Shown: in pieces, positions 31,901-64,000 of the stretch
Position numbering within the stretch: the first letter of the stretch is position 1
Layout: each line of letters starts with the position of its first letter
Translations under genes and position numbers: made by a program
Source of the DNA: Agelas oroides
Lineage: Eukaryota; Porifera; Demospongiae; Agelasida; Agelasidae
Direction: 5' to 3'
Assembly: GCA_949130485.1 (NCBI GenBank)
Contig: OX422186.1
Coordinates: forward strand, 10,041,771 to 10,105,770
Length of the DNA: 64,000 nucleotides
The notes under the pieces: generated by a model
The model's input: only the letters and a program-made list of their open reading frames with translations
The model's database searches: none
Told to the model about the DNA's origin: nothing

Positions 31901-33328
31901 TAAACCAGATTTACAGCTGAATTTGTATGGTTTAATTAGTTGCAGCTGCTGGGATACTCTTGTACTTCATGTGGGTATGCAACTTTTTCTTGGAGAGAGT
32001 AACCAGAGAGTAGACTGTGTAGCCTCTTTCTCAGGCCCCCACCCAGCTTTCTGTTGCTTGCTGTATGGTGGTAAGGGACAGAAGCTGGGTGGGACATACA
32101 TGGGAATGAGGGCTACTGAGACTGTGTAGCTGAAGGTTTGCAGCAGTGTATCACATGTAGCATTGTTCCCACCAGACTTTCTCAAAGTCAACGTTTTGAT
32201 CATTTTACAGCACGGAGAAGGCATGGGAGATTTTCACATGATTGTTATGAATTGCTGACGGAGGCAAAAGGGTCAAGAGTCCCCTCCATACACTTTCACA
32301 GGGCTATAAATTGATGTTCTCCTTAGATGCCGATGAAGGCGACCATGAACTGTGCAGTGTGTAGACCCAAGAGACAATCCTTGGAGAGCTGCTTCTGTCC
32401 AAGAAGGAGCACAACTGAACAACTGTACTACCATTTTAGTCTTATTATATCTCCAAAACATGGCATGGCACAATGTGGCTGAACCATGGCTAAATCATGG
32501 AGGAGTGCATGTATGTGGGTAGGGCAGCGGGTTCTGCGCCTTCTACATGATCTATTCAAGTGAAGTAAGTTATCTCTGACGCTGACTCTAACTTGAGGTA
32601 ACTGCAAGGGCAGTTGTAGCGATTATAATTGGGACTCTTGAGCGCCGTGTGTAGCTTTGCATGCTAGCAGAAACGTCCGAAGCGCATAGAAACTATTCAG
32701 AGGATAGAACATTCTGCTGTGGTCAATGCATGCAAAAAGAGCGACAAAGTTTTACCCCAGCCCTCATACGTGACGTCATTATGCAAGTTGGCCATTGAGA
32801 TCAACTGGAGGTCCAACCTCCACATTACCCTCAGCCCTCAGCCATGTTTCTCAGCAACCTCCACTGCTCCTTGCCTACAGCCCACAACATGCTCTGTGTG
32901 ATTCTGACACTTCTAACTAACTATTCATCATGGGAATGTACATACATATACTACATACCATGCCACTTGCAATCTGGTAGGCAAACTGAATGAGGTCATT
33001 GGACTCCAGGTCTCCAAGGTCAGGGTACAGATCTTCTTCCTCCTCTTCTTCCAGTGCTGCTGGTTTGGGATCCAGGTGAGAATACTCATTCTTAGCCTCC
33101 TGTTGTTTTTGTGCAGAAGATAATAAGCAAGGACATCATAACAACGAGGTGAACTATGTTGTTGTGCGTTAGTATCATACGATTGTATGTATGTATGGCA
33201 GATACCAGGTATGGAGCAGGTGTGGGTTTGTCTTGAGTCAGCTCAGACCGTGGTGCCACCTCCACCTCCACACTTTCCAGCTGTGCCTCTGGGGGCAATA
33301 GGTGAGAATATTCATCCCTTGCCTCCTA

Positions 33329-33365
<37 letters not shown>

Positions 33366-33809
33366 AATCGAGGAATAATGTCTGTGTGTACTGAACTCAC
33401 ATTAGTCAGGGTTTCATACGGGGGGGGGGGGGGGGGGGGGGCTGGAATTCTCTCCCCCCCCCCCCCCCCCCCCAGAAATCTTGAAATTGAGTATGGTTAT
33501 TATATTACATGTTACTGAATTCAAAATTTTCCTGGGGAGGGATGCCCCCAGACCACCCTAGTAGGCACGCACACATTTCACACGCTACTATCATCCTGCT
33601 ACCATCCTGTTTCCCCCCCCCCAACTCAAAATCCTGTATGAAACCCTGTTAGTCACTAATGTGTATGTGTGCAAGGTTAACTGCATGTGAAGCATATCTG
33701 TCAGTCAGTCTGCCAGTCTGTCTGTCTGTCTGTCTGTCTTGTCTGTCAGTCAGTCTGCCAGTCTGTCTGTCTGTCTGTCTGTCTGTCTTGTCTGTCAGTC
33801 AGTCTGCCA

Positions 33810-33847
<38 letters not shown>

Positions 33848-36800: not shown

Positions 36801-39800
36801 CATACTAGTTTGAGTGGAGAGTGTATTGTGTAAACACATACTAGTTTGAGGGGAGAGTCAGTTTGTGTATCGTATAAACACATACTAGTTTGAGTGGAGA
36901 GTGTATTGTGTAAACACATACTAGTTTGAGGGGAGAGTCAGTTTGTGTATTGTGTAAACACATACCAGTTTCCTCTTGAACAGCCATGACTTGATGCAAA
37001 CAATGCACAGGAGTACCAGCAGAACCATCAGGACTATCAGGATGAAGGCACTAACTGAGAGTGAAGATCCGAGAATGACAGGGAGAAGAGATCTTGCTGT
37101 GTGTGTGTGTGTGTGTGTGTGCATGCGTGCGTGTGTGCAAAACACAGTTGAAGGAGTACACTAGGAGGATGTGTGATGTGTGTGCACATTATGTAAGTTG
37201 ACAGGCATATCAAACATACGTGGTACTACAACAGGGAGGATCATGGGGTCACTCCAGGGTCCGTTATCATGATTAATGTCAACTTGACGTCGACTTCTTG
37301 TACTGTTTGCTGCACTGGTTGAACGCATCTGTGAGGGTTAAGTGTTATAAATGATCATGGAAGCAGGTAGTGGGTGTGTATCATGTGAAATGAAGGTCTC
37401 GGGCGAGTATAGTAGTAGATGAGTAGTCTATGCATGTATGAGTATACGTGAGCAGTCAAAAGTAAGGTTGGGTAAATGTGCGAATGAGGTAGTTATAGTG
37501 AACCATGACAATTAGTGTCATGTGAGCATACAGTGACAACACGATGGAATTGGTAAAAGGAATGGGACAGTTGGTAAAGGAAATGATTTCCAATTGAAAG
37601 TACTCACCTGTACCACTATTGTTATGTTATCCATATTTGCAGTTTCAACATCAACAGCAAAATCAGCATTTCCAGTAACACCCCCCACCTGTTGAAACAA
37701 ACACCACATGATATTACTAGGCAGCAACTCCAGTAACATGATACTAATTCTCTCATCTAGTAAACACGGCATGTACACAATTACTACAAATTGGTGTGTA
37801 GAAAACTACTGGAGTGTGAAACGAGAGTACTAGTTGCTTGACCACTGAATTTCATGTGTTTACCTCAAATGTATTGTTTACCTCAAATGTATTGGGGGGT
37901 GATGGAGGAGTGTCAAATTGGTCGAGAGCTTCTCTTCCCACCCAAGACTGATATGTAGTCACAGCATCCGCAAGCTCGGTGGAGCTATCAGGCACCTCCC
38001 ATTTCAACTCCACCTCCCCAGACACCCTCGACAAACCATTCCCAAGTGAGACAACCCTAATGTTTGCACTGATTACAGCTGTTATGTTCCCGGGTGATGG
38101 TAGGAGACGTATGCGGCGTATCTGGATTGCATCACTCCAGTTGCCTTCGAGATCAAACTCACCTATTGCACGCATCTGGGGCAAAGAAAAATTGTGGCTC
38201 TCATGTCATTGTCAAGTAGTTACACATTTTGTTATAGTAACTAAATTAGGAGATCATCCATCCCTGTTCACTAGCAAAGCCCCATATAGTTGTGGTGACT
38301 GTCTAATGATATGTATGAACGTCATGCTGTTATAAATTATACATGCTAAATGAGAATGAGAGTTCCAACTCTTAAAACTAAGGTATATATCAGAGCTAAC
38401 CCTCCCTGCTTTTGCATGTGATGGGGGCATGGAAATAAGGTGAAGATTTTACTTGGCCATGCATGCACTTTCTACCAAGGTCTCATGCGATTTCCTGTAC
38501 CTGTACAAACACATCAAGACTGTTGTTCTGCAGATCAAAGTTTTCATCAATGACAGTTGAGACCATGCTCTCCTGAGAACAACAAACAAGCAAACAAAAA
38601 TTAAGTCTATACATATCTACCAGATAATTCTTATTCCTTGCTTGACAAGACAGTGGATTGCACACAGTGACAACAGAAGTAGTTATCAAGTGTTTAGGCC
38701 ACCAAGTCCCTGAATGTCATAGGCAAGACCATTGGCGGTTTCAGAGCTGCGAGGTTACCCGGGCAGGCGATACGCGCGGCGGAGCCGCTACGAGTTTCCG
38801 TAAGCAATAACCACAATTGACCAGAATTTTACCAGGGCATTGCCAGTGGGCAAGGCAGCAACTTTCAACGAGCCCTGATTGCTTGATTTGCTTCTTGTGT
38901 CAGCTTTTGCGAATAGCAACTAGCTTCCAATATGTACATGTATACCCATAAAACTTTTGTGCACTGAATCATCACTTCCAGGAGAATAACCAGATGAAAT
39001 TACACATTTAAATGTAGCACACTGTACAGGCCATCCAGTACCACTCTAGGTATACAGTATATTACATTCACACCTCAAATGCTTTATATCCACTTGGATT
39101 CTCATTTAGCTTCAGTGGCCTCTCTCCAACCCATAGGTGGTATCCAGTCACATTTCCAAGGACAACACTGGGTGGAGTCCACATCATTCTGGCTTTGATT
39201 GTTACCATTGGTCCAGTTGCTCCTGATGTTATTACATGTGAAATGTTGCTCACACGAATACCTGTCATAACATCAGGTGGAATTGTGGAGATGCGTATTT
39301 CTACTGTAGTCCAGTCATTAACGGCATTACCAAGTTCAGTGCGAGCTCGCATCTGTGTGTATGTGACAGATTTAAAGGCAAGGTAGGGGCAATTCTGATT
39401 ACATATTATAATTCTGACCAGGATATATGCCATTTACACGTACAATTAAAGGGAAATGTCGACAGAACATCTGGTTATGCTATACTCTGGTCATGCCATC
39501 ACTACCAGAGTGTCTTTCTGTCATGTTCCATTGTTTCCCTCAGCTCCACTTTACAAACTACCGTATTTCTTTGAATCGACGCCGCCCTCGAATAGTAGCC
39601 GCACAACCCGAAACTCTTGAACGAAATTAACTCCATCCTTGAATAGTAGCTGCGGCTAGTAAACGTGGCACGTGTACACAGTATATGCACGTGTGAATGA
39701 TTTCTGACGATGGTCACCACTAGCGCTAGGACTGTTTGTGTTATACGAGCCGTTCCCACGGGTGACAGCAAGACTGAGAGGCTGCTCATACTACTGACAG

Positions 39801-46200: not shown

Positions 46201-49200
46201 GCAATAAAATAAAAATTATATTTAATAATACTTATGGGTGTGGCTTCCACTCTGTGTAGCAATATAATAGCATGCATGGTTGCATTGCAGTTTCATGTAC
46301 AAATCAAGATCTATATCGTCAGTTTGTCTGTCTGTCAGCCTCTTTGTCATCAAAAATATAGAAAAATCACTCAAGCAGGCAATTTAAATGGCTTTAGAAT
46401 CCATACATGTGATAGTCAGAATGTGTATATTGTGCCATGTGTACTCACTATAGGTGCACCATGGCACTAACGAATGTTTTGATTTCTCTTGCCTGGCAAT
46501 TCATTCACATTACATGAGTCCATTAATTCACATCTTTGGGAGCATAACTAATGATCTTCTATAGTTGCTCAGAAATGTGGCATAGAAATCCTGTTGCTAT
46601 GGAAATGGTACTATATTCATAGGTGACTAAAATCTGGTTTAAATTTTTTTTTTTTGCATATAGCTACCATGAAGTAGTGATTGTCCCTGTGTTTGTTAAC
46701 TGAGTAGTGAGCTCCTAGATAGATCCCTACACATCCCACTTAATATCGAGGGAAGAACCTATTACCAAGGTGATGGCTGCCAATCATTCATCTATCTGAC
46801 TTACATACCAGCTTTGTACTTTAGCAAATTGTCTATTAGTAAAGGAAATACTAACAACTAAATGACAGTCACTGTATATAGTTTCATAATATACGCCATA
46901 TGGCAAACCATAATCACAAAGCAACCACTGCATACTTAAGATGATGCTATCTCTACCCAGCCGAAGACAGGTTTCTGCTATCACCACCAGAAAAGACAAC
47001 ATGCTTTATAGCATGAGGTTCTGATAGTGTCCTTAAATGGGTATACATATACCAGAGATTAGATGAAGCCATTGGTGTGAAGGATCTTGGCCATATATTA
47101 TTGGCTGTATTCTCAAGTCATTCCTGTCACGTATTCTGGGTAATGCATGAGCATGGATGGTGTGCAGCTGGTAGCCAGGCCCGGGCATATATATACAAAG
47201 CTAGCTATCACCCAATTGTCTGTTTTCCTCTTGAAAGTGTTTACTATGTTGTCCTGTCTGATGTCAGGTGTACTACCTCTGTGGTGTCCTTAACTCAGGG
47301 AGTATATAGTTGTAGTTACCATCTGGTCTCTCCCATACAAGGTTAACAGTGTAATGCTGGAAGAATCCCCGCCTCTCGTCTGGCACTGCAGAAATGTTGA
47401 ATTCACTGAGCTGCCTTGGAAACTGGGTACCATTACCTGGGTAGAGGAGAGTGGCAAAAGAGAGGAGAGACTATAGAAATTTACACAGTGTAATATTGTG
47501 GGAGAATTTACAAGTGAAGAGAGAGACCACATTTTTTACTTAGCTACAGTGGGTGTATAGGAGGAGTTGTGCTTGTTTTGGGTGAAAGAAATCTTATGGG
47601 ATATCTGCAAGCCAGTTGTATATTGGCTACTGGAGCACTATAGATCCCAGCAAGGGACAAGCTTGATAAGCAAAGCAGTGTATACATAGACTGAACATGA
47701 TCCAGTTACTCCAAGGCCATGAATATGGATTATAGCTACATGCATGCAGAAAGCCTCATGAAAGCAGATCCATTTTGTTGTGAAGTACACCAATTAGAGC
47801 AGACACTCAGTGACACCTGATGGTCCTCAAACTGACCATAATAGAACTCTAGTGCTTAGCTTTCCTGTACAGTCCATGAGAGATGAAAAGTCAAGCTGGA
47901 CGTTCACTTGTCATCAGTAGTGCTAATCTAAAATTGAGATCAATTGTGTCTGTAGCTTTGCAGAGGCCCCCCGGGGGGCCAAAAACATGACATACAAAAA
48001 CTAATTATGTGGACTTGGGGGCGAGAGTAGGACACGGTTACCAAGCCTCGTCACACTTTGCAGCACTTATTGTACAGTGAGATTCTTTGTCATGGTCAAA
48101 CTGAGTGTATAGATAGGCAACAGTGACATGGAAATGTAAACTCTATGTATAGATTATTTACCAGTGCAAGTAAACAACAAACAACTTAACTCAGTGAGCA
48201 AACAACTGGCTATACAAACATACTTAGTGATCTACCAGATAATCTCCCACACATGTAGTCATTATCTCTCTCCAACATGAATACTGAAAGCAAGCTAACT
48301 TTAACTTGCCACTACAAATATCAAGAGAATGAGCCAAAAAAGGTGAGTCTGGTGGGAAGAACCAATGCTCAAGCAGGGCATAATCCTTTGTTGCTATGTT
48401 ACAAGCTGAGCCACTCATCAGGGCATAATCCTTTGTTGCTATGTTACAAGCTGAGCCACCCATCAGGGCATAATCCTTTGTTGCTATGTTACAAGCTGAG
48501 CCACCCATCAGGGCATAATCCTTTGTTGCTATGTTACAAGCTGAACCACCCATCAGGGCATAATCCTTTGTTGCTATGTTACAAGCTGAGCCACCCATCA
48601 GGGCATAATCCTTTGTTGCTATGTTACAAGCTGAGCCACCCATCAGGGCATAATCTTGTTGCTATGTTACAAGCTGAGCCACCCATCAGGGCATAATCCT
48701 TTGTTGCTATGTTACAAGCTGAGCCACCCATCAGGGCATAATCTTGTTGCTATGTTACAAGCTGAGCCACCCATCAGGGCATAATCCTTTGTTGCTATTA
48801 CAAGCTGAGCCACCCATCAGGGCATAATCCTTTGTTGCTATGTTACAAGCTGAGCCACTCATCCTGGTGTGATACTAAGTTTGGGTGGGCACTTTCTGGA
48901 ATGTTTAGTAACACTCAGAGGATTTTCACAGATCAATATAACTTTGACCTCTAATAACCTACTGCAGGAAGTTTAATCATCAGAAGCCCTTTAGAAGCCC
49001 ATTTGTGACTGCTGTGGTCTAAGTGTGATCACAGATACAACTGTGGCTTCTCAAGGAAGTTTTTGAGTGTTAATTGTATGCTTGTGGCAAGAGTTGACTG
49101 TACATGTTCAGTGTAGGAGGTGTATCCTGTGCTATAACTGTCCATATCACCACATATGGTGTTGTGAACTGTAATGAGGAGTTGGTGTTTAAAGAACTTG

Positions 49201-52200
49201 GTGCAGTCAGAGTTCTTAACCACAATTGAGTTGCAATTTGATACATGAACAGACATCTGCTCAGAGTTGTTATAGCAACCAGACATGCTATTTACTATCT
49301 AGCAGAAACCAGAAATATGGTTCCAGTCTCCATGACAACTCAGTCATGACCAAGTTGTTTCTGCACTCTGCCCTTAGTAGAAAACTTAGAAACTAGTCAC
49401 ATCCAATAATGATAGCTGTAGCTACATAGTCTCATACCCAACTAGTCTTTGTGTACTACCGCAAGCATTCAGAACAGTCAGCAGTTTGCTATAACCGAAA
49501 TGCTATGAATTCAATTGTGTGGCTTGCCTCCGGAGACTCTGATGGTGGTTGCTGGTGAGTACTCAGAGAGGCCTCGATGAGTGGCAACAGCAAAAGAGAC
49601 ATTCACCACTCTGTTGGCAAAAGTCTCTAGATTTAGTTTGAGTTGACGCTGCAAAAGAAAGTTGGATGGTCAGAAAACACCAGTGCATTATATAATACAT
49701 TCAAGTGTTTAATGTGCATTGAGTATTTACTGCTACACACAAGGCGACTGAGTGATATGTATTTCATCAGTGCAACACTTACAATCCAGAAGTAACTGTA
49801 GTTACGTGGTGTAACATCAATATCCTCCACTCGGAAGAGCAGAGTAGAAACGAGTCTTGTTACTTGAGTCCCACTAGGGGGTGTTACATTTACACAGTGC
49901 TGGGTGGGGAAGAGGTCACTTTGGGAGAGCAGTGGAGGGGCATCCGGGTTGGCTGTTGAAGGGTACACTAAAATGTTTGGTGATAAAGAAAGGCTTATGT
50001 AAGGATACTTTCATAGTTCTAGGTTACTAGCATAAGTAGTCACTAAATGTGCACTAGTATTCCAATCTGCATCTCTGTAATGCAAGGTCACCTTCATTGA
50101 TAAGATCATCATGTTTAGTGCATCCTGTGTTGCAAGGTTTTTTTACACAGCTCAGTCCACATGGTGGTGCATATTGAGCCCTACACAGACATGACCCTGA
50201 ACTTCTACAGAAAGGATCGTCGTATGTACGACACTCTGTCCGACAATTACTTCGCTGAAATAAAAGCCAGACACATAAAGTTAAAAACTTGACTCTGCAG
50301 TCTATTACCTTTGGCTGCAAGTTTTCAACTTACACAAGTGTTACCGCACTGGTCAGAAGAAGTGCCTGAATACCTTGTTAGACAGCCTCGTTCACATTCC
50401 AGAATCTATGAAAAAAAGGTTACATGAGGGCAAAATTTGGGCAAACTGATTTGGCAGACTAGTAGGGATTATGTATACTAGCAAGAATATAAGAAGCACA
50501 GTGTAAAATATACAAGTTTCATACCACACGATAACTGTATCGACCACAGTCCCGATCACTTCCAGATCTTGGTATCAGGAAAGAGTCAGGCACTACATTC
50601 CAAACTGGATAGCCAGCAAGTACCTGTGATATTGATAAATAAATGATGGATCAGGCATTCATGTGACCATTACTAGCTACAGGCCAGTTCTCCAGAACAG
50701 AGCTCAGTGAAGTCAAGCAAGTGGTTAACCAGAAATCACATAAAGGAGGTTAAACACCTGTGTCTGTACAAACATTGAATGAGGTGGTTAAAGTTATTTT
50801 GTAAACTTGAGGTGGAAGCACATTAAGAAGTAGATTCATAAAATCAATATGAGAGGCAATGGTCACACATGCAACACTGACTAATGCAAGTAGTGTAATA
50901 GGTAGACAAAACCTTGCAGGTGTGTCCCTGTTTCGTGTTTCAGAACACACTTGCACTCCAATAACATTAGCTACTTGTGCTTTGAGGCGGCTAATTCAAT
51001 CTGTGCCAGTCCTTAGTCTAAACTCCACTTGACATACCACTGTAGGAGCACCTTTTAATTTGCCATTTTAAATACTTTACAGTCACATTTGTAGATGATG
51101 TTGTGACCAAGGATGTTTGTAGTGGTAGTTATTGTTGCTTGCAGCATGGGGAGAGAGAGCTTGGGTAAACTTTATCATATGAGTGACATTAAGGGAATGT
51201 GAGGTAGACACGCCTGACATGCACAGGAACTATACACAGCCATAATATAATAATGTGGGTTGATCCACAGACGTTAACACCGTCAAAGCCACAAATATTA
51301 TGTGCAAACTTGAGTAATAAGCTCCTAGACCTTCTATGCATGTGTCTCAATAATTAGGGAAGAAAAAGGTGTTACTTAATAGTGATGGCTACCAAATAGT
51401 ATGTGTTGTTTTTGTACACAATTACTTCCACATATTGGCTGTAGCACCAATACTAGCCAACAGACCTATAGGGTGTGATGTTGCGTCCCGAGTACAAAAT
51501 TCATTATCATACTTGCACAATATACCATCCTTAGGAGGCATTAGTGATTCAAGTATTCACTTCACAAAGGGCTGCAAACTTGAGCCATTGAAATACTGAC
51601 ATGGAATTGTAAAACTGACTGGTATGAGGTAATGGGACACAATATTGCATCTCTCATAGCAAAACATGTAAGCATATAACTGCATGGTGTCTGTAAACCA
51701 GGCCAACAACTGACTGGTATGAGGCAAAACATGTAAGCATATATCGCAAAATCGGGAAATTAAGCACCGGTGCCTATTTTCGAAATTAGCAGCCAGAATC
51801 ATATTTTCAAGGGGTGCTTATTTTCATGGGGTGCTAATAAACACATGTGATTTTTTGTTAGCGTGCAGTTGTGTGGGAATGGATTAGCTGTGATATATTT
51901 TAGGCCTAGAGTTTCTTTTTCTGCTAATTTCTGTCCAATGTTTATAGCTTTTCTACATCCAGAGATACAGTCAGCGATCGATCAATGTGAGAGGTTTTTG
52001 CTAATTCCTGGATTTGTATCTCCTGCTGATAGCTTGCTTACAATCAGAGATAGACACTGGCGAAAATTAGCCGCTACGTTCGAAAAAGCCAAATCAGCAA
52101 ATTCACTTCTGTTTGTACGGTAAAGGTGGGTGCCTATTTTTGTACCATACAACATCGCATTTATAACAAAAATAGGCACCCCACATGGGTACTTATAAAT

Positions 52201-53561
52201 GCGATGTGGTTGTTGTGATCAAAATAGGTGCCTATATTCATGGCCTATTATCCTGATTTTACAGTAACTGCATGGTGTCTGTAAACCAACAACTCATGGT
52301 TGAGAGATGTTTATTCACCTCCCATCTACTGCTATACCCGGTAACCATGACTCAGAATCTACTATGGCACAATGCACAATATAAATTTTAAAAAACTGAT
52401 GACTTACCCGCTGTTCAGAGGATGACAATGTGCCAATCTGCAACAGATAAGTGGGACAGAAATTACATTGTGCCATTGCATTTGGATCATTTTGTGCACT
52501 TATTATCATTCATGGAACCATAAATCCTGTCTCTCTTACTAAACTCTGATATTTTTAACTGTGTTAATAGTAACCTGATCAGCAACACACGCAGCATGGC
52601 ACAGTGCTCTCTGTCTCAACTCCTCTTCCGTCCCTGTAACTGTTGAAGGGGACACAACATCCTCTGGAAGCATGCAGCTGGGAGCATCGGGCAGCATAGG
52701 TGTAGGTGTTGGTGAGGCTGAGGGTAGTGGTACAACCGTACTTGATGATGCAGATGCAACCATACTTGATGATGCCGTGGATTGTGATACAACTGTACTT
52801 GAGGATGCTGAGGGTAGTGATACAACCGTACTTGATGGGACTTGCATTGTGTCATCACCACTACCGTCATAGGTAGGTGGAAGGGTAGGTGATGCTGAGG
52901 GTGGTGATGATACTGAGGGTACTTGCATTGTGTCACCACCACTACCATCATAGGTAGGTGGAAGGGTAGGTGATGCTGAGGGTGGTGATGATGCTGAGGG
53001 TAGTGATACAACTGTACTTGATGGGCTCAGTACTTGCATTGTGTCATCACCACTACCGTCATAGGTAGGTGGAAGGGTAGGTGATGCTGAGGGTGGTGAT
53101 GATGCTGAGGGTACTTGCATTGTGTCACCACCACTACCATCATAGGTAGGTGGAAGGGTAGGTGATGCTGAGGGTGGTGATGATGCTGAGGGTAGTGATA
53201 CAACTGTACTTGATGGGCTCAGTACTTGCATTGTGTCATCACCACTACCGTCATAGGTAGGTGGAATAGGTGCAGGGGTAGGTGATGCTGAGGGTAGAGA
53301 GGATGCTGATACAGCCGTGCTTGATGATGCTGAGGTTAGTGGGGCAACCGTACTTGATGGTGTCACTACTTCCATTGTGTCACTGACGGTATAATCATAG
53401 TCTATCATCGTCATCATATCACCAGATCCCATGGCGCCGGCGGCACGAGCAGGCCGCGGTTCTCCCAGCCAGACATAGTCGTAGGTATCGTCAGATAGGG
53501 CAGATTGCAACAGCAGGCAAAGCAGAACTAGGACGGTGAGATGCAAGTGTTCTCTCCGCAT
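28913..53561 (-). CDS. Gene C: long receptor tyrosine kinase with mucin-like N-terminus, Fn3 array and large kinase insert (about 30 exons)
   Basis: Exons: 52575-53561, 52408-52437, 50525-50623, 50334-50405, 50092-50254, 49783-49967, 49528-49648, 47320-47436, 46107-46198, 45676-45750, (tentative 44361-44385), 42835-43049, 41259-41330, 40795-41079, 40089-40160, 39074-39352, 38501-38572, 37864-38175, 37608-37688, 37220-37328, 36966-37054, 35363-35470, 34612-34768, 34248-34438, 33933-34115, 33206-33325, 32959-33099, 29986-30235, 29802-29898, 28913-29555. Phases join throughout; the tentative exon fills a needed phase 0-to-1 gap and is weak. The start is the ATG of [20 protein letters not shown]. 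The ectodomain has Ser/Thr/Pro repeats, a Cys-rich region and about six Fn3 domains. Kinase marks: [48 protein letters not shown]. The tail has SNPYVESPS and SNPYTDEPS. About 1813 codons, depending on the tentative exon and on which of two tandem donors is used at 37864/37882. Confidence 0.88.
30557..30627. mobile_element. Minimal CCTGGG foldback element
   Basis: 71 bp hairpin from 'tagccttgttcccaggcccc' to 'ggggcctgggaacgaggcta' in a gene C intron; shortest intact family member seen. Confidence 0.85.
30690..31215. repeat. About 150 bp tandem repeat, 3.5 copies
   Basis: Units contain 'agttccacttcctggagttg', 'ctgccttggcactttgcagg' and 'gtgaaagtcagttgaacatt', in the gene C intron between the catalytic-loop exon and the kinase insert. 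Confidence 0.9.
31519..32797. mobile_element. 1.28 kb TIR element with TGACGTCA arms
   Basis: 'caatggccgacttgcataat' and the following 'gacgtcacgta' recur inverted at 32755-32797. No transposase frame was seen inside, so it is non-autonomous. It occupies the gene C intron next to the kinase insert. Confidence 0.78.
33420..33475. repeat. Poly-G tract followed by poly-C tract
   Basis: About 20 G, then 13 bp, then about 18 C: a potential hairpin or G-quadruplex in the intron between two kinase-insert exons of gene C. Confidence 0.9.
33711..33921. repeat. (CTGT)n microsatellite
   Basis: CTGT repeats with periodic 'cagtcagtctgc' breaks, stopping about 12 bp from the donor of the gene C exon at 33933. 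Confidence 0.94.
34859..35275. repeat. 60 bp minisatellite, seven copies
   Basis: Units start 'ctcatgaccacatcatagac' and contain 'catcatgacatcacaatgac'. In the gene C intron before the Gly-loop exon. A unit of 60 bp keeps a frame open but it is not coding. Confidence 0.95.
35684..36965. repeat. 44 bp minisatellite (about 29 copies) abutting the gene C transmembrane exon
   Basis: Units read 'gtttgtgtatcgtgtaaaca', 'catactagtttgaggggaga', 'gtca'. The last unit runs straight into the exon donor at 36965/36966. On the minus strand each unit contains AAACTAGTATGTGTTTACAC, one base from the real junction AAACTG/GTATGTGTTTACAC. Confidence 0.95.
36966..37054 (-). other. Transmembrane exon of gene C
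   Basis: The exon encodes [20 protein letters not shown] then [10 protein letters not shown], a clean single-pass helix with a basic cytoplasmic flank. It enters in phase 1 after an exon ending VVVP and leaves in phase 0 into the juxtamembrane exon 35363-35470 ([11 protein letters not shown] to LLDDWE). Its donor (AAACTG/GTATGTG) directly abuts a minisatellite whose units resemble the donor itself. Confidence 0.9.
37220..37328 (-). other. Membrane-proximal Fn3 exon of gene C with a furin-type site
   Basis: The exon starts [17 protein letters not shown] and continues to [15 protein letters not shown]. It aligns with the final Fn3 strands of its paralogues ([12 protein letters not shown] in [14 protein letters not shown] earlier in C), but has an extra loop holding RSRR, a match to the R-X-K/R-R proprotein convertase consensus, next to an NST glycosylation sequon. 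Confidence 0.7.
39561..39967. mobile_element. MITE with CCGTATTTCTTTGAA ends
   Basis: 'ccgtatttctttgaa' at the left and its inverse 'ttcaaagaaatacgg' at the right, flanked by TA. The interior repeats 'cgccctcgaatagtagccgc'. TA target duplication fits a Tc1/mariner-type non-autonomous element. In a gene C intron. Confidence 0.82.
40186..40245. repeat. (TG)n microsatellite
   Basis: About 30 TG units in a gene C intron, 25 bp upstream in the transcript sense of the exon 40089-40160. Confidence 0.94.
42042..42443. mobile_element. TIR element, GGCCGTAGCAAGC ends
   Basis: 'ggccgtagcaagc' and inverse 'gcttgctacggcc' bound about 400 bp without a transposase. In a gene C intron. Confidence 0.72.
43201..43261. 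repeat. Short hairpin, TATACTCCGCTAGACAGTTT family
   Basis: 'tatacttcgctagacagttt' and its inverse 'aaactgtctagcggagtata'. The same hairpin family is at 54180-54240 upstream of gene C, with one half left at 63010-63050. Confidence 0.75.
44581..44988. mobile_element. Foldback element of the CCTGGG family, about 408 bp
   Basis: 'tagcctcgttcccaggcctt' to 'aaggcctgggaatgaggcta' with matching inner arms ('ccagtttttgatcgcttgca' against 'tgcgagcgatcaaaaactgg'). In a gene C intron. Confidence 0.88.
45291..45558. mobile_element. MITE with CACCTATCAATGTTATGCC ends
   Basis: The 19 bp end is repeated inverted at 45540-45558, and the interior is also partly self-complementary ('cccctatagttggg' and 'ccactatagggg'). 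Gene C intron. Confidence 0.82.
48375..48862. repeat. 45 bp minisatellite, about 11 copies, expanded only in the gene C copy
   Basis: Units 'gggcataatcctttgttgct', 'atgttacaagctgagccacc', 'catca'. The matching place in gene D (58440-58480) has one unit. Confidence 0.94.
51744..52264. mobile_element. TA-flanked non-autonomous element present in gene C but not gene D
   Basis: Element ends 'tcgcaaaatcggg' and 'cctgattttacag' are imperfect inverted repeats. The empty site in gene D reads 'gcatataactgcatgg', and in gene C 'gcatata' and 'taactgcatgg' flank the insert, giving a TA target duplication. The interior has its own 'aaaataggcacc' repeats. Confidence 0.82.
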
Positions 53562-54992
53562 GTTTGATACGATTAGCGGCTGCTTCACTTCTTCTTTGTT
53601 TCGTGTTATTAGCTAGCTATCAAATCCAGGGTGCAGTAATACTTCAAGATCAGATTCAATGGTTTGTGAAATGTTGCTGTTCTGGGATGCGTTACAGCGA
53701 CAAGCGACCGCTTCCATACACGCCGGAAATCGGCTCCGGATGTAGCAAGACGCCCGCGCCGCGCCCTCAGTTCTCTGGTTTCGCCTCCAAGGTCAGGCTG
53801 TATGCATAATAGTATGTCCCTACCTGATGATTAGTCCTAGATGGCAAATGTGTGCGAACAGCATTCCAGTGTGCTATGTGAATGTATCGTATGACATTCC
53901 CTGCATGTAAATGATACAGTGACTAACTTGTTAATTATGACATTGTAGCAGGGTGTTGGGGTTGTTGCAACCTACCCGACCCACTTCAACCATGATATTG
54001 TGACTAGCTTACTAGTATATACAGTCATATATTAACTACATCACATCACTTTGTAAGTATTTCATTGGATAAATAGAGGTATAGTTTACGCAAGCTTTGC
54101 ATGATGTTATAGCATAGTTTACTCTCTCAATGTAGTGTAAGTTGGATATACTACCTATACTCAGACTATAAACACAACATACTCTGCTAGATAGTTTACC
54201 CTTGGCTGCGCCTCAGGTAAACCATCTAGCGGAGTATATTTGTTTTTATACTTCTCGTAATAAATGTCAATTAAGCGTCCTACTTCTGGAGGGCAAACAC
54301 ATGATAAGAGGCAGCTGCACAGTGGATCTTTCACTTTGAGAGAAGCAGCTTCTTTTATCTTTTGGCTGGTGGTAAGGAATTGATGTAGCGCTTCCTTGCC
54401 TGTATCAGTTTGCACACAACTGCAAAGAACACACACCCCGACTCTTGCCCTCCTGATGTGAAGCCACGCCCCATGAAAACCATCTATAGGTATGGTAGGT
54501 ATGTCCATAGGTACTAGAGTGCCACTCCACTATCTATGGTATGTCTAATACTTAAATCTTGAAAGTCCTCATAACTGCAGTGTCAGCATGCTGCCTATAG
54601 AAACCAAAATGTATGAGATCTCCATTCATGAACAATCAATGAACCACATCTCCCTTAAAAATAGGCCTAGATGTTATACAAAGTCACCCACTCCGCAGGA
54701 CGCATTTCGGCTAATACCAGGCCTCATCAGCTGCATGCATACGTATGGCACCATGACCAACATGAAACATGAAGTAATTCAGTTACATAATTTCGCACTT
54801 GTGGTCAAATTCTTAGTTGAGACTATTGAAGAAGTTTATCCTCACTCAGTTCCCAGTCCTGGCCTAGATATTTCCAGCATGCATTACTTGCAGTATATGG
54901 TAATAAAGCAGGAAGGGCTCAGAAAAGCTGCTGGTGCAAAAGCCTAACTGGGAACAAGGCTGAGCACTGATTCGTGGACATACCCCACCTAT

Positions 54993-55055
<63 letters not shown>

Positions 55056-55292
55056 GATGCATGCATGCAGTTTAGGGGTGCAGTATTCCCATGCATTCAC
55101 CATACTATAGCTAGCAAGAGTGCATCTAGACCAGCTGGCTATACAAATGCTGTTAACATAATTTGGCTACTGTTGAGGTAAGTAATCTAGTTGTACTAAT
55201 TAATCCTCCCAGACCTCTAACCCCTGACATCAAATGACTACGGATACCAAATAGGGTACCAACAAGGCAATACAATGTACGTTTCTTCAAGC
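53562..55292. other. Intergenic space between genes C and D
   Basis: Contains the upstream flank shared with gene D, a hairpin (54180-54240), a degraded repeat with a conserved open stretch (54161-54508, including RRARVGVCVLCSCVQT), a block inverted relative to copy 2 (54546-54757), and the CA run at 54990-55052. No supported gene. The conserved open stretch is broken by a frameshift in copy 2 (63064-63325), so it is probably repeat-derived. Confidence 0.65.
54990..55052. repeat. (CA)n microsatellite
   Basis: About 30 CA units; the homologous tract near 63833-63893 in the second copy is interrupted by 'tgcacgcacgtg'. Confidence 0.94.
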
Positions 55293-55298
55293 TTTATT
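55293..55298 (-). terminator. Poly(A) signal of gene D
   Basis: AATAAA on the minus strand, about 180 nt after the gene D stop. It supports the coiled-coil exon being the true last exon. Confidence 0.65.
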
Positions 55299-55473
55299 AC
55301 ACAACATGACAGTGTACTAATACGACATAAGGTACTAAATATGTGTGCATGTATGAGAAGCTATGCCAAATATTTCCGAGCGGGTAGCTAAGTACATGTG
55401 TGTATGTGCTGCTGATCATGATGCATGGTGGAAATATACTTCAGCAATTGTGTAACAGCAAGTGAAAATTGGA

Positions 55474-55925
55474 TTACTCATGTAAATGTGATGACAAGAG
55501 TCTTGTAATGTTGTCAAGCTTTTGTTGAATGCTGGTGAGTCTATTTTCCAGTGAAGACACTTGTTCATCCAACCTGAGAAGAAGAAAAGATATTGGAGTC
55601 TCACACAATGGGGTAAATGTTAGCTACAAAAGAGGCACCGACAGTCTATACAAAACACTTCTCGCCCTCCCTCTACTTGCATACTCTGTGAGGATATTTA
55701 CATATTCGGGGGATATTGCCCACTCAATTTTGCAATACATACAACATTTTAGTTAGCTGATCATTCATTGGTTGGATTGATTCTTTCACATGATTATCCA
55801 TACTCACTTTTCTTCTAGTTTTTTTACTCTTCCTTTGAATGTGTCCTCACTCCTGTGTAGGTCCCCACCACACTCCAGCTCTAACAGCTTCTCAGTACTG
55901 CCACCCTTCTCCAAATACACTGATA
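55474..55925 (-). other. Coiled-coil C-terminus of gene D (exons 13-14)
   Basis: Exon 55808-55925 ends DTFKGRVKKLEE and joins in phase 2 to exon 55474-55573, which gives KLDEQVSSLENRLTSIQQ followed by KLDNITRLLSSHLHE and a stop. Hydrophobic residues fall at 3-4 spacing (V, L, L, V, L, L, I, L, I, L) with one stutter. Such short Leu/Ile heptads usually make dimers or trimers. The upstream part holds one Cys (LELECGGD) that could crosslink chains. A multimeric secreted product is inferred. Confidence 0.85.
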
Positions 55926-58900
55926 CTGCATATACAGAGAAAGATATTGCATGGTGACTTTCTGATCTCCAAAACCTTATAAAGACCTTTGTCAAGGAAA
56001 ACAGATTCAGAGATTTAAAGGTGTAACAATTATGTAACACACTAGAAAAATATTTACTATATTGGAGCAAGGTTGGATGGTCGAGGATATTGATTTGTAT
56101 TACAGTTCTATAATTATATGTGCTCAGGTACTAAAGCCTTGGCCCTTTGTGTTCCAGATCCCTATTGTCAACTATATCATGGTAAAATAATGTGCCAGGT
56201 TGGGATTACCTTTTTCTGGAGAGTTTGTTGCATTGAGTTTGAATCCCTCACACTTATCATCTAGTGGTAATGTCAGGGGCTCACTCCAGTTACTGGATAG
56301 AAACTCATTGTGGGATCTCATCTGAATTGAGAAATTGCAAGACAGCCACATCACTATATGGTGGGTGTACTTAGCTAAGACATGATGGCTGTTATATATA
56401 CATGTATAATTGCAATCTTACCACAAGGTAGAGGCAATGTGTGCTTTCATTCACGTCCAAAGTAACATTGACAGATGCAGAGTTCACAATGGCCTGTAGA
56501 GAAAAGAGTTACAAAATATCCTGGCATTATTGCAACAATGAAATATATATTATGCACTAGCTATAGTAACATAATACCTAGAAAAGCGAGAGAGAGAAAT
56601 CTATGCAACAATTTTTTTCAGTGATCTATTGGGATTCAAGCATGCAAGCTTACAGGAAATCTTTGTGTATGCACTTGTCCATCTCTGTCTCCTTGATCAG
56701 GCAAGTTCTCTCCAATGCGAACCTCATACTCAGTGATCAGTCCGTTTGCAGTGGTAGGAGGCAACCAAGTTAGTGTCAAGAGGAGTACTCCTGATTTATG
56801 AAACTCTAGTTCACTGACTGAGATGTTCGACATGGAAGCTGGGGGTAAGGATTGACTGTCTATCAAGCAGCTCTGGATGCGGGGTACATTTCTCCAGAAA
56901 TATTGTGCTTTCTTTTCTGTTCTGACCTGAAGGTAGATACATAGGCAACATGCAATGTGTCGTATAGGTAATGCATAAACACATTTAAGTTCAAATGGTA
57001 ATATTTGTACTTCTGTTGAGCATAGTAGCTTACTTGCACTTCATATTTGTATGTGTTGCTCCGCTGTGGTCTGAAGGGTGCCAGTGTAAGACTGTACTCA
57101 AATTTGTCATCCTGCATAAGATAATGGGAGCATTATAAACTCTTATTAAACTGGAACAAGAGCATGCTTACATTGTGTAAACATTTTAGGATCCTTTCTC
57201 AAGAATTCTCTCCTATTATGCTGGTCCTTCCCAATTAGCATTGATACTCTTTTGTGTGCATTTGTCACTAAAACTGGAGGATGTCCAGTGTACGAGATAT
57301 AGTCTCTAAATTGACAGTTGGTTTTATGCCGGAGGGACATGCCCCCCAGTATACTGACAGACTAGAACTGGATGCACAGCTCACTTGTATGATGTGCAGC
57401 TGTTGTCTATACAAGCTAAGTGACAAAGACTATTTGCTGCAACAATGTATACAGACATGATTTCTATGGAAAGAATCCACTCTATTGTCATTCTCAGGCC
57501 TCGGCAGTGTCCGTTACTTACAGTATGTGATCTATGAGGCCTAGGAATGAGGCTAGTCTGTTCTACATACAAGCAGCTCTACACCTACCTCAGTTTGTAC
57601 TGTGTGTGTGCTATAATGTCTGATGATGCCAAAGGCTCCACAAAAACGTGAGTCCTTCAGCGTTGGAGTGATGACAAAGTGTCTGATTGTTTCCAGCACT
57701 TGGGTGAAGTTGGGAAGGGTCCATATGACAGAAATACTGAAATTTCCCTCCCGATCCCACACTTTAGAGCACTTGAGGGACACTTGTGGAGCAGGACCTG
57801 GCACTGAAATCACAACAATAGAACACTAGTTCCTTAGGTGTACACGTTTCCCTAAATCACATAGTGACCAGCATAATCAATAGAACACCAGTGCTTAGCT
57901 TCCTTCATGCAGTAAGTAAAGTCAATGAGAGATGGAAATCAAGCTGGATGTTCATCATGAGCTAGCCTGCTTGGTCTCAGTAGCGCTATTTACAGTCAAA
58001 ATCATGTGTGCCTAGAGCTATATAGGGGTCCTCGGGGGCCAAAAACATGACATACACCACAACATTATTATACATGCACATGGAGCCCAGATAGGACACA
58101 ATTACCAAGCCTCATTACTTCACTACACTTGGCATCATTATTGTAAAATGAACTCTGTGTAGATACAGAATTAAGATAATTATTTTATCCAAGCAAGAAA
58201 ACAACAAACAACTCAACTCAGTGAACAAACAACTACCTATACAAACATACTTAGTCATCTACCAGATAATCTCCCACACAGCCATGCATGTAGTGATATG
58301 ATCCTAGTAGTACTGTCTCTTCCCCACATAAATAGCCTTTTGTGGTGATACATGCAACTAGCTTGCTTCTACAAATATCAAGGAGATGAGAGAGAAGAGG
58401 TTGGTGTGGTGGGGAGAACCAACAACTAATCATGCACAATACTTTGTTGCTATTACAAGCTGAGCCACCAATCCTGGTGTGATACTAAGTTTGGGCGAGT
58501 ACTGAAATGTTTACACTCCACCAAAAAGAGGAGTATACCTTTGACCTCTAATAACCTGTTGCAGGAAGTTAATCTTTAGAAGCCCATTTGTGACAGCTAC
58601 AAGTTGTGGGTGATCACAGATACAACAGTGGCTTCTCAAGGAGGGTTAATTGCATGCTTGTGACATTCACAACTCAGTGCAACTGTACATGATGCACGTA
58701 GGATGTGCATCCTGTGCTATAACTGTCCTTATCACCACATATGGTGTTGTGAACTTGGTGTTAGCTGTTTTAGGGACTTGGAGTCAGAGTTCTTGAGTTA
58801 CAATTTACACAGCAGCTGTTCAGGGTTGTTATGGCAACCAGACATGCTGTTTACTGTAGTAGGAATTAGTGGTACAGACTGAGAAACTAGAAATATGGTA

Positions 58901-61900
58901 TCCATCTCCATGACAACTACTGAGCTAGATCATGATCAGGTGGTTTTATGCTCTGCCCCTAGACAAGAATTTAGAAATTAGTTGTCATATGTGCAACCAT
59001 TTAGCAATGGCAGAATAGATATTCTCATGTCCAGCCAGCCTTTTGGTATTACCAAAGGGCATAAAAACAGTCCATTCGTTTGCTGTAACCAAACTTAGCA
59101 TTCATATGTAATATCGGCCTTGTTTTCTGGCTCTTTTTTGATGAGAGAGCCTAGAAACAAGGTTGGTAAATTAAATGCTGCCCTGTTTATGAATTCAATT
59201 GTGTGGCTTGCCTCCGGAGACTCTGATGGTGGTCACTGGTGAGTACTCAGAGAGGCCTTGAGGTGTGGCAACAGCAAAAGAGACATTCACCACTCTGTTG
59301 GCAAAACTCTCTAGATTTAGTTTGAGTTCACGCTGCAAAAGAAAGTTGGATGGTCAGAAAACACCAGTGCATTATATAATACATTCAAGTGTTTAATGTG
59401 CATTGAGTATTTACTGCTACACACAAGGCGACTGAGTGATATGTATTTCATCACCACAACACTTACAATCCAGAAGTAACTGTAGTTACGTGGTGTAACA
59501 TCAATATCCTCCACTCGGAAAAGCAGAGCAGAAACGAGTCTTTTTACTTGAGTCCCACTAGGGGGTGTTACATTTACACAGTACTGGGTGGGGAAGAGGT
59601 CACTTTGGGAGAGCAGTGGAGGGGCATCCGGGTTGGCTGTTGAAGGGTAGTACACTAAAATGTTTGGTGATAAAGAAAGGCTTATGTAAGGATGCTTTCA
59701 TAGTTCTAGGTTACCAGCATAAGTAGTCACTACAAAATGCACCCGTATACTCAAAAGTATGCATGTGTGTTAAATGTTCCAATCTGTATCACTGTAATGC
59801 AAGCTCACCTTTATTGATAAGATCACCATGCTTACTGCATCCTGTGTTGCAAGGTCTTTTTGCACAGCTCAGTCCACATGGTGGTGCATATTCAGCCCTA
59901 CAGTGACACGTCCCTGAAGGGTTGCATGAAGGATCATTGTATGTACGACACTCTGTCCGACAATTAATTCGCTGAAATAAAAGCCAGACACAAAAAGTTA
60001 AAAACTTGACTCTGCAGTCTATTACCTTTGGCTGCAAATTTTCAACTTACACAAGTGTTACCGCACTGGTCAGAAGAAGTGCCTGAATACCTTGTTAGAC
60101 AGCCTCGTTCACATTCCAGAATCTATGGAAAAAAAGGTTGCATGAGGGAAAAATTTGGGCAAACTGATTTGGCAGACTAGTAGGGATTATCATGCAGTAT
60201 ACTAGCAAGAATATAAGAAGCACAGTGTAAAATATACAAGTTTCATACCACACGATAACTGTATTGTTGACAGTCCCGATCACTTCCAGATCCTGGTATC
60301 AGGAAAGAGTCAGGCACTACATTCCAAACTGGATAGCCAGCAAGTACCTGTGATATTGATAAATAAATGATGGATCAGGCATTCATGTGACCATTACTAG
60401 CTACAGGCCAGTTCTCCAGAACAGAGCTCAGTGAAGTCAAGCAAGTGGTCAACCAGAAATCACATAAAGGAGGTTGAACACCTGTGTCTGTACAAACATT
60501 GAATGAGGTGGTTAAAGTTATTTTGTAAACTTGAGGTGGAAGCAAAATCAATATGAGAGGCAATGGTCACACATGCAACACTGGCGAATGCAAGTCCTGC
60601 AGACCATTCTTGAGATATCGAAGTTTTTAGGCCAACTTCCGGTTGATGACGACAATGACGAAAAATCTCAATTGAACGCGGCTATAGCCTTGCTTCGCTC
60701 GGAATTAATGAAATTTTGTATCACCCAAGCATATACCAGGGGGTAGGGCAGAGAAAGTTGGGGGGGCTCCAGCCCTTCCCAGAACCCCCATAAAACCGCC
60801 ACTGTCACACATGCAACACTGGCTAATGCAAGTAGTGTAACAGGTAGACAAAACCTTGCAGGTGTCCCTGTTTGAATTCATGTTTCAGAACACACTTGCA
60901 CTCCAATAACGTTAGCTACTTGTGCTTTGAGGCAGCTAATTCAATCTGTGCCAATCCTTAGTCTAAACTCCACTTGACATACCACTGTAGGAGCACCTTT
61001 TAATTTGCCATTTTAAATACTTTACAGTCACATTTGTAGATGATGTTGTGACCAAGGATGTTTGTAGTGGTAGTTATTGTTGCTTGCAGCATGGGGAGAG
61101 AGAGCTTGGGTAAACTTTATCATATGAGTGACATTAAGGGAATGTGAGGTAGACACGCCTGACATGCACAGGAACTATACACAGCCATAATATAATAATG
61201 TGGGTTGATCCACAGACGTTAACACCGTCAAAGCCACAAGTATTATGTGCAAACTTGAGTAATAAGCTCCTAGACCTTCTATGCATGTGTCTCAATAATT
61301 AGGGAAGAAAAAGGTGTTACTTAATAGTGATGGCTACCAAATAGTATGTGTTGTTTTTGTATACAAATACTTCCACATATTGGCTGCAGCACCAATACTA
61401 GCCAACAGACCTATAGGGTGTGATGTTGCGTCCTGAGTACAAAATTCATTATCGTACTTGCACAATATACCATCCTTAGGAGGCATTAGTGATTCAAGTA
61501 TTCACTTCACAAAGGGTTGCAAACTTGAGCCATTGAAATACTGACATGGAGTTGTAAAACTGACTGGTATGAGGTAATGGGACACAATATTGCATCTCTC
61601 GTAGCAAAACATGTAAGCATATAACTGCATGGTGTCTGTAAACCAGTTAGGCCAACAACTCATAGCTATACCCAATAACCATGACTCAGAATCTACTATG
61701 GCACAATGCACAATATAAATTTAAAAAAACTGATGACTTACCCGCCGTTCAGAGGATGATAATGTGCCAACCTGCAACAGACGAGTGGGACAGAAATTAC
61801 ATTGTGCCCTTGCATTTGGATCATTTTGTGCACTTATTCTCATTTGTGGAACCATAAAACCTGTCTCTCTTACTACACTCTGATATTTTGCATGCAACAA

Positions 61901-62603
61901 CTGTGTTAATAGTAACCTGATCAGCAACACACGCAGCATGGCACAGTGCTCTCTGTCTCAACTCCTCTTCTGTCCCTGTAACTGTTGAAGGGGACACAAC
62001 ATCCTCTGGAAGCGTGCAGCTAGGAGCATCGGGCAGCATAGGTGTAGGTGTTGGTGAGGCTGAGGGTAGCAGTACAACCATACTTGATGATGCAGATGCA
62101 ACCATACTTAATGATGCTGTGGATTGTGATACAACTGTACTTGAGGATGCTGAGGGTAGTGATACAACCGTACTTAATGGAGTCAGTACTTGCATTGTGT
62201 CATCACCACTACCGTCATAGGTAGGTGGAAGTGTAGGTGATGCTGAGGGTGGTGATGATACTGAGGGTAGTGACACAACTGTACTTGATGGGCTCAGTAC
62301 TTCCATTGTGTCATCACCACTACCGTCATAGGTAGGTGGAAGTGTAGGTGATGCTGAGGGTGGTGATGATGCTGAGGGTAGTGGTGCAACCGTACTTGAT
62401 GGGCTAACTACTTGCGTCGTGTCACTGAAGGCATAATCATAGTCTATCACCGTTATCATATCACCAGATCCCATGGCGCCAGCGGCACGAGCAGGCCGCG
62501 GTTCTCCCAGCCAGACATGGTCGTAGGTATCGTCAGATAGGGCAGATTGCAACAGCAGGCAAAGCAGAACTAGGACGGTGAGATGCAAGTGTTCTCTCCG
62601 CAT
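55474..62603 (-). CDS. Gene D: secreted Fn3 protein ending in a coiled coil; kinase-less paralogue of gene C (14 exons, 775 codons)
   Basis: Exons: 61917-62603, 61742-61771, 60249-60347, 60051-60122, 59809-59971, 59467-59654, 59212-59332, 57589-57803, 57034-57111, 56654-56926, 56422-56493, 56210-56321, 55808-55925, 55474-55573. They total 2328 nt in one frame with a stop, and an AATAAA lies about 180 nt downstream. Residues 1-21 are a signal peptide ([20 protein letters not shown]), then a Ser/Thr/Pro region with two YDGSGDD repeats, the Cys-rich region, three Fn3 domains (the last with STHCLYLV and MRSHNEFLSSNWSEP), and a C-terminal heptad coiled coil at about 732-772. No hydrophobic membrane segment or kinase exon follows Fn3. 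The first seven exons are near-copies of gene C; exons 13-14 have no match in A-C. Predicted secreted and oligomeric. A soluble decoy, co-receptor or ligand role is inference. Confidence 0.88.
60596..60805. mobile_element. About 210 bp insertion specific to gene D copy
   Basis: Relative to gene C (50860-50900), gene D has an extra block flanked by two copies of 'cacacatgcaacactggc' plus 'aatgcaagt'. One side ends 'aaaaccgccactg', inverse CAGTGGCGGT, which also begins a repeat at 19313. The interior reads an apparent ORF across the junction, but it is not a gene. Confidence 0.75.
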
Positions 62604-63859
62604 GTTTGATAGGATTAGCGGCTGCTTCTCTTCTTCTTTGTTTCGCGTTATTAGCCAGGGTGCAGTAATACTTCAAGATCAGATTCAATGGTTTGCGAAA
62701 TGTTGCTGTTGAAACTTCTGGGATGCGACACGCAGGCAGCGATACCCAGTGACCGATTCCATACGTTTATACACGCCGAAAATCCCGGCTCAGCAAGACG
62801 CGCGCGCCGCGCCCTCAGTTCTCTGGTTTCGCTTCCTGTATGCATAATTATAGTATGTCCCTACCTGATGAGTAGTCATACATGTGCGAACAGCATTCCA
62901 GTGTGCTATGTGAATGTATGACATTCCCTGCATGTAAATGATACAGTGACTAACTCGTTAATTATGAACATTGTAGCAGGGTGTTGGGTTGTTGCAACCT
63001 TATGGGACTTTTGGCTGCGCCTCATGTAAACCGTCTAGTGGAGTATATCTGTGTTTATACTTCTCATATAGATGGTTTCCAAATGTCAATTAAGCGTCCT
63101 CCTTCTGGAGGGCAAACACATGATAAGAGGCAGCTGCACAGTGGGTCTTTCAATTTGAGAGAAGCAACTTCTTTTATCTTTTGGCACTGGTGGTAAGGAA
63201 TTGATGTAGCGCTTCCTTGCCTGTATTTGCACACAACTGCAAAGAACACACACCCCGACTCTTGCCCTCCTGATGTGAAGCCACACCCCATGAAAACCAT
63301 CTGTAGGTACGGTAGGTATGTCCATAGATACTAGAGTGTCACTCTACTATCTATGATATTTCATGTCATCAAGGTGCCATACGTATGCATGCAGCTGATG
63401 AGGCCTGGTATTGGCCGAAATGCGTCCTGTGCAGTGGGTGACTTTGCATAACATCTATAGGCCTATTTTTAAGGGAGATGTGGTTCGTTGATTGTTCATG
63501 AATGGAGATCTCAGTACATTTTGGTTTCTGGGCAACATGCTGACACTGCAGTTATGAGCACTTTCAAGATTTAAGTATTCAACATGAAACATGAAGTAAT
63601 TCAGTTACATCATTTTGCACTTGTGGTCAAATTCTTAGTTGAGACTATTGAAGAAGTTCACTTAGCCTCACTGAGTTCCGACCAGTCCTCACCTAGATAT
63701 TTCTAGCATGCATTACTTGCAGTATATGCATGGTAATAAAGCAGGAAGGGCTCAGAAAAGCTGCTGGTGCAAAGGCCTAGCTGGGAACAAGGCTGAGCAC
63801 TCTTACTGATTCGTGGACATACCCCACCTATCCACACACACACACACATGCACGCACGT

Positions 63860-63896
<37 letters not shown>

Positions 63897-64000
63897 GATG
63901 CATGCATGCAGTTTAGGGGTGCAGTATTCCCATGCATTCACCATACTATAGCTAGCAAGAGTGCATCTAGACCAGCTGGCTATACAAATGCTGTTAACAT
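62604..64000. other. Upstream flank of gene D
   Basis: Counterpart of 53562-55160. No gene supported. Holds degraded repeat (63060-63325), the inverted block (63365-63579) and a CA-rich run at 63833-63893. The first 200 bp upstream of the ATG closely match those of gene C, so the two genes may share promoter logic; no TATA box recognised. Confidence 0.6.

Follow-up and report, generated by a model that had tools for sequence, protein, structure and literature searches.

Organisation of gene D

The 64,000-nucleotide stretch of Agelas oroides DNA analysed here (assembly GCA_949130485.1, contig OX422186.1; C4:10041771-10105770), hereafter the window, lies within a cluster of receptor kinase genes and contains gene D, situated beside the receptor kinase gene C. 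Genes are designated by letters, A, B, C, E, F and G being receptor kinases and D and D2 coil genes. Positions refer to the window unless given as genome positions, and genome searches covered 259.3 Mb in 141 contigs. Gene D2 and the right-hand part of the duplicated segment described below lie beyond the window edge and were found in the surrounding genome sequence.

Gene D is encoded on the minus strand, from an ATG at 62603 to a stop codon ending at 55474, and its 14 exons, once joined, give an open frame of 775 codons closed by a single stop, in agreement with the closed frame proposed in an earlier note on this DNA. The encoded domains follow the order signal-peptide-like start, Ser/Thr/Pro-rich stretch, cysteine (Cys)-rich region, three Fn3-like domains and C-terminal coil. 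Exon 1 (61917-62603) encodes the signal-peptide-like start, so judged by eye, and the Ser/Thr/Pro-rich stretch. The Cys-rich region occupies exons 2-5 (61771-61742, 60347-60249, 60122-60051 and 59971-59809), and the first Fn3-like domain (Fn3-1) exons 6-7 (59654-59467 and 59332-59212). Exon 8 (57589-57803) begins the half of the gene that resembles D2; exons 9-12 (57111-57034, 56926-56654, 56493-56422 and 56321-56210) complete the two remaining Fn3-like domains, and exons 13-14 (55925-55808 and 55573-55474) encode a pre-coil Cys, a heptad coiled coil and the stop. An AATAAA (55298-55293; TTTATT on the plus strand) begins 176 bases past the stop codon. The introns have GT-AG borders; the one exception is intron 7, with a GC donor at exon 7 in both D and C.

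As the earlier note had described, the coil is encoded by two exons and followed by the stop and the AATAAA. Its hydrophobic a/d run has V/L/L/L at the a positions and L/L/I/I at the d positions of the main register, with glutamate (Glu) at one a position among the 35 scored residues. The a/d score was reached by none of 20,000 residue shuffles, and among the 1,035 six-frame open reading frame fragments of at least 35 residues in the window, the one containing exon 14 was alone above 0.70, the coil scoring 0.82. Moreover, AlphaFold2 predicted exon 14 alone as a single helix with a mean predicted local distance difference test (pLDDT) score of 96. The main register contains an R-LxxI-Q site, which is only a near match to the trimer motif R-hxxhE given in the available part of PMC3653964, with Q in place of its Glu. 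A PDB search with the coil exons returned 43 weak matches (best expectation value (E) 0.14), including GCN4 and trimeric adhesin coils, from which no oligomeric state was inferred. Matrilin-type proteins are secreted, multidomain proteins with a short C-terminal coiled coil preceded by Cys. D is alike in its Cys and short C-terminal coil, but its R-LxxI-Q site lacks the Glu and its other domains are unrelated.

The designation of the D domains as Fn3, also taken from the earlier note, appears only partly supported. A search of residues 230-775 of D gave no Pfam fn3 match at E<=1. When eight Fn3-like segments of the cluster were searched singly, three matched Pfam fn3, all under its gathering score of 25 bits: 18.1 bits (E=0.003) was obtained for D exons 10-12, 20.4 bits (E=0.0006) for a composite of F and the array units described below, and 14.2 bits (E=0.05) for a segment of B. 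The other five, the Fn3-1 of D included, had no Pfam fn3 match. Furthermore, no protein relatives of D residues 210-775 were found at E<=0.001 among 5.8 billion sequences (8,000 candidates scored), and a PDB search with residues 230-775 returned zero matches at E<=1.

A receptor tyrosine kinase is defined by a membrane segment followed by a tyrosine kinase domain; B and C have both, and D has no kinase domain and no credible membrane exon. No kinase match was detected inside D or between D and C, and a hydrophobicity scan of 62700-53600 revealed five stretches. That at 55052, in the interval separating the two genes, is a CA repeat, and the others lie in introns 2, 2, 3 and 7 of D. The best donor scores of these four intronic stretches ranged from -2.0 to 1.7, against 4.0 to 7.4 for the 13 donors of D itself under a model trained on D. 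A hidden membrane or kinase exon was thus discounted, and the absence of such exons, claimed previously, was borne out. Exon 12 of D exits in phase 1, the phase in which the membrane exons of B and C are entered, again as the note had stated.

Relationship of gene D to genes C and D2

Exons 1-7 of D correspond exon for exon to those of C (49528-53561, minus strand), the apparent origin of its head. Exon 1 differs from its C counterpart at 34 of 687 aligned bases, and the head encoded by exons 2-7 is identical to that of C at 197 of 223 aligned residues (88%). The remainder of D matches a different gene, D2, which adjoins D and whose last exon begins about 0.3 kb past the window edge. D2 (genome 10114581-10106085; 17 exons, 680 codons open) has its own signal-peptide-like start, Cys exons, Fn3-1 and Fn3-2, followed by equivalents of D exons 8-14. 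Its 3' half is identical to that of D at 309 of 321 residues (96%), and its head at only 59 of 196 (30%). The D2 model was assembled by hand, without an equivalent of the 10-codon exon 2 of D; exons 2, 3, 6 and 7 (E 3e-5 to 0.003) and the first Fn3-2 exon are backed by homology, and exons 5, 9 and 10 were chosen by phase and splice site alone. Good genome-wide matches to coil exons 13 and 14 numbered two each, in D and D2, a third match to exon 13 having E=2.1.

Both parents are still present, one matching each half of D, and the switch between them is sharp. It lies in intron 7 of D, at 57875-57879 on the minus strand, with D2-like sequence on the exon 8 side and sequence like C intron 7 on the exon 7 side. 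Correspondingly, 47840-55159 (C) matches 57879-64000 (D), and 54758-57875 (D) matches 63580-66680 (D2, window numbering continued). The left copy of the duplicated segment (47840-57875) thus holds part of C intron 7, C exons 7-1, the C upstream DNA and D exons 14-8; the right copy occupies 57879-64000 in the window and extends, as the D2 3' half, up to genome position 10108450. Judged from its sequence, gene D is a chimera whose exons 1-7 and upstream DNA come from C and whose exons 8-14 come from D2.

Chimeric genes can arise when duplication breakpoints fall inside two neighbouring genes. We propose that a segment reaching from C intron 7 to the D2 intron before the exon 8 equivalent was duplicated in tandem, which would have set a second set of C upstream DNA, signal peptide, Cys-rich region and Fn3-1 ahead of the D2-type Fn3-like domains and coil. 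Since both broken introns are of phase 1, the fusion reads in frame. This model predicts that D should lack Fn3-2, which lies outside the duplicated part that D received, and the prediction holds: the first Fn3-2 exon was present in A, B, C (47321-47437, minus strand), D2, E, F, G, a partial G copy and four array units, and was not found in D (tblastn E<=0.5). The region upstream of D (62604-64000, about 1.4 kb) is homologous to 53562-55159 upstream of C, so D is probably driven by a copy of the C promoter. A piece of about 230 bp is inverted between these upstream copies (54541-54770 in C, 63356-63585 in D; 91% identical). Tandem duplication is already known to produce chimeric gene structures in Drosophila yakuba, according to the available text of PMC5460883; D is alike in its origin; its donors, however, belong to a single cluster, one being a receptor kinase gene and the other a secreted coil gene, and its product is predicted to be a soluble oligomer.

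These relationships alter one conclusion of the earlier note, namely that in D the coil had replaced the membrane and kinase exons at an equivalent junction. The 3' half of D is a near-identical copy of that of D2, and the junction is located in intron 7 instead of behind exon 12. Because D2 already has the coil, we reject the idea that a coil took the place of the kinase de novo within D. With its diverged head, D2 would rank as the older of the secreted genes in the cluster, and a swap of membrane and kinase for coil after exon 12, if it happened, would belong to the D2 ancestor rather than to D.

Divergence differs along the copies. Between the upstream DNA and exon 7, windows of 150 bases show C and D to be 85-100% identical, save for the inverted piece (37-77%); intron 7 gave 69-82% in such windows and 66-71% by BLAST. 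Within C intron 7, positions 48374-48863 form a 45/90-bp tandem repeat with a long open frame on both strands, and D intron 7 carries a match of about 40 bp to single units of this repeat. A comparison of D with D2 over exons 8-14 (968 bases) showed 22 differing bases and no gaps, giving a nonsynonymous divergence (dN) of 0.017, a synonymous divergence (dS) of 0.046 and a dN/dS of 0.37, compared with 96 of 2,073 noncoding bases plus 147 gap columns; the coil exons differ at 2 of 218 bases. Between D and C, exons 1-7 gave dN 0.050, dS 0.072 and dN/dS 0.70, and the Cys-rich region with Fn3-1 gave dN 0.063, dS 0.060 and dN/dS about 1.05. Under neutrality, if noncoding divergence serves as a clock and the D branch accounts for half of it, 5.8 frameshifts (exons 2-14, exon 1 being left out of this count for its repeat-number changes) and 2.0 stops would be expected on that branch; none was seen (joint probability 0.0004).

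Exon 5 (59971-59809 in D, 50254-50092 in C) differs between C and D at 21 of 163 bases (12.9%), with 13 residue changes, 2 synonymous codons and conserved cysteines. Singled out after inspection of seven exons, it exceeded introns 1-6 (102/1,749, 5.8%; p=0.001), introns 3-6 (17/456, 3.7%; p=9e-5) and the flanking introns 4 and 5 (12/203; p=0.027). Diversifying selection and an unconverted older patch would both fit this pattern.

Proposed product and alternative explanations

The earlier note's view of D as a secreted relative beside C, with the N-terminal region of C and a coiled-coil end, is upheld, secretion being predicted from sequence only. The product is predicted to form an oligomer, perhaps a trimer, held by the C-terminal coil, with a possible inter-chain disulfide at the Cys before it, and would be expected to share the ligand of C and a C-like expression. 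Since the C head in D is preceded by upstream DNA resembling that of C, the site of action of D is most likely that of C. In our proposal D is therefore a soluble, multivalent partner that would either compete with C for its ligand or, when bound to that ligand, cluster C. We consider it probable, on balance, that tandem duplication created a chimeric gene whose predicted secreted oligomer, bearing the C head, clusters C or competes with it.

Soluble receptors are already known; osteoprotegerin, for example, is a secreted decoy for RANKL with a receptor-type binding region and no signalling part. If secreted as predicted, D would resemble osteoprotegerin in having a receptor-type region devoid of the signalling part; it differs in being a fusion with a coil gene and in that its ligand binding is putative. 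The traits of D that bear on a decoy role are the signal-peptide-like start, the head shared with C and the lack of a kinase. Secreted and membrane pairs are also known already: the accessible part of PMC3691228 describes, at one Botryllus locus, the secreted gene fuhc-sec beside the membrane gene fuhc-tm, whose product is a membrane protein with three immunoglobulin (Ig) domains. D and C are alike in that a predicted secreted gene adjoins a membrane gene, but D differs as a chimera with the kinase receptor's own head. Among the titles listed in searches of open-licence literature, none concerned this cluster or the fusion of a receptor head to an adjacent coil gene whose two parents both persist, and the available portions of PMC8662651 and PMC6485061 contain nothing on this cluster.

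Several points weigh against the proposed origin and role of D. Given that intron 7 is only 66-82% identical and most of the rest 85-100%, the history of D comprises more than one step, the simplest reading being a later gene conversion of the 5' part. Conversion from C or from D2 would upset the divergence clock and weaken the neutrality test. The dN/dS of the D head against C gives no sign of constraint and also fits relaxed constraint. Finally, a home-made gene finder recovered 13 of the 14 exons of D exactly but used a different donor for exon 8 and added one exon; D itself having been the training gene, this agreement is circular. Its models of A, B and C were rough (C without its membrane exon), and those of D2 poor.

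Two of these points, the head dN/dS near 1 and the patchy identity suggestive of conversion, would also fit the view of D as a recent duplication by-product without selected function, its frame kept open through youth or through gene conversion from C and D2. We regard this as unlikely, though it deserves some weight: with noncoding divergence as the clock, the lack of frameshifts and stops argues against neutrality, as does the near identity of the coil exons with those of D2. An assembly artefact, in which two haplotypes of one C-to-D2 segment were placed end to end, would account for the 84-97% identity of most BLAST pieces of the two copies and for the order C remainder, copy, copy, D2 remainder. 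It seems extremely improbable in view of the divergent intron 7 parts, the inverted piece and the zero N in the surrounding 164 kb; furthermore, a contig path across both copies would require a read spanning the junction. It is similarly very hard to credit that D merely donates 5' exons to read-through transcripts spliced into the membrane and kinase exons of C. The phase of exon 12 would permit such splicing, and mixed transcripts are described at fuhc in the available part of PMC3691228, but D is equipped with coil exons, a stop and an AATAAA of its own, and the coil exons and stop are conserved in D2.

A further alternative takes D and D2 as ligands: these secreted oligomers would engage in homophilic binding with the heads of the receptors in the cluster and would activate C, perhaps within a recognition system. 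The presence of membrane and secreted members within one cluster, the adjacent secreted and membrane genes at fuhc (PMC3691228, in its accessible part) and the excess of mostly residue-changing differences in exon 5 would be in line with this, but homophilic binding is purely hypothetical, exon 5 was chosen post hoc and stands out less from its flanking introns, an unconverted older patch would leave the same pattern, and the Ig domains of fuhc-tm are unlike the domains of this cluster. That D is a ligand by homophilic contact is possible, the positive evidence being confined to the pairing of secreted and membrane members, and we judge the ligand explanation doubtful. More speculative still, and improbable in our estimate, is a recognition locus in which repeated unequal duplications would build secreted oligomers out of receptor heads and a portable coil tail, D signalling to or blocking C head-to-head and exon 5 diversifying so as to keep pairs distinct.

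On our preferred interpretation, that of D as a soluble multivalent partner of C, the gene would document almost in full how a single duplication can yield a receptor head in soluble, multivalent form, with both parents, the breakpoint and the agreement in intron phase still visible. Its product may be likened to engineered receptor traps, of which it would be a natural counterpart. D and perhaps D2 are also candidate partners for orphan receptor kinases, D for C and D2 for another receptor of the cluster.

The surrounding receptor cluster

Genes A, B and C lie on the minus strand and E, F and G on the plus strand. The membrane segment of C is at 36969-37091 (minus strand), and its kinase exons, at 29408-34768 (minus strand), matched PF07714 with E=6.3e-76 when joined. 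The kinase exons of B are 65-81% identical to those of C in three pieces. Genome matches to the C kinase exon at E<=1e-20 numbered at least 6 (150 of 628 candidates scored), all of them on C4 at about 10.03-10.18 Mb. D exon 7 likewise had seven genome matches at E<=10, all in the cluster, and D exon 10 had weak matches outside the cluster too (best E=0.006). Compared with solved structures, the C kinase ranked an EGFR entry first, followed by RET and FGFR kinases, among the best 60 of 597; this ranking would indicate only that it is a tyrosine kinase. NCBIfam gave weak bacterial kinase models and nothing else for the joined C kinase.

A second kinase-less stretch was observed at genome C4:10152566-10171722, where a copy of the G ectodomain (81-95% identical) leads into an array of four F-like Fn3 units spaced 2.4-3.2 kb apart and ends in a membrane-like stretch with a stop directly behind it; no kinase match was found in the G ectodomain copy and F-like units of this stretch. 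Additionally, genes B and C contain long tandem arrays outside the identified exons, at 14478-15633 and 35684-36971, with offsets of about 49-98 and 80-88 bp, respectively.

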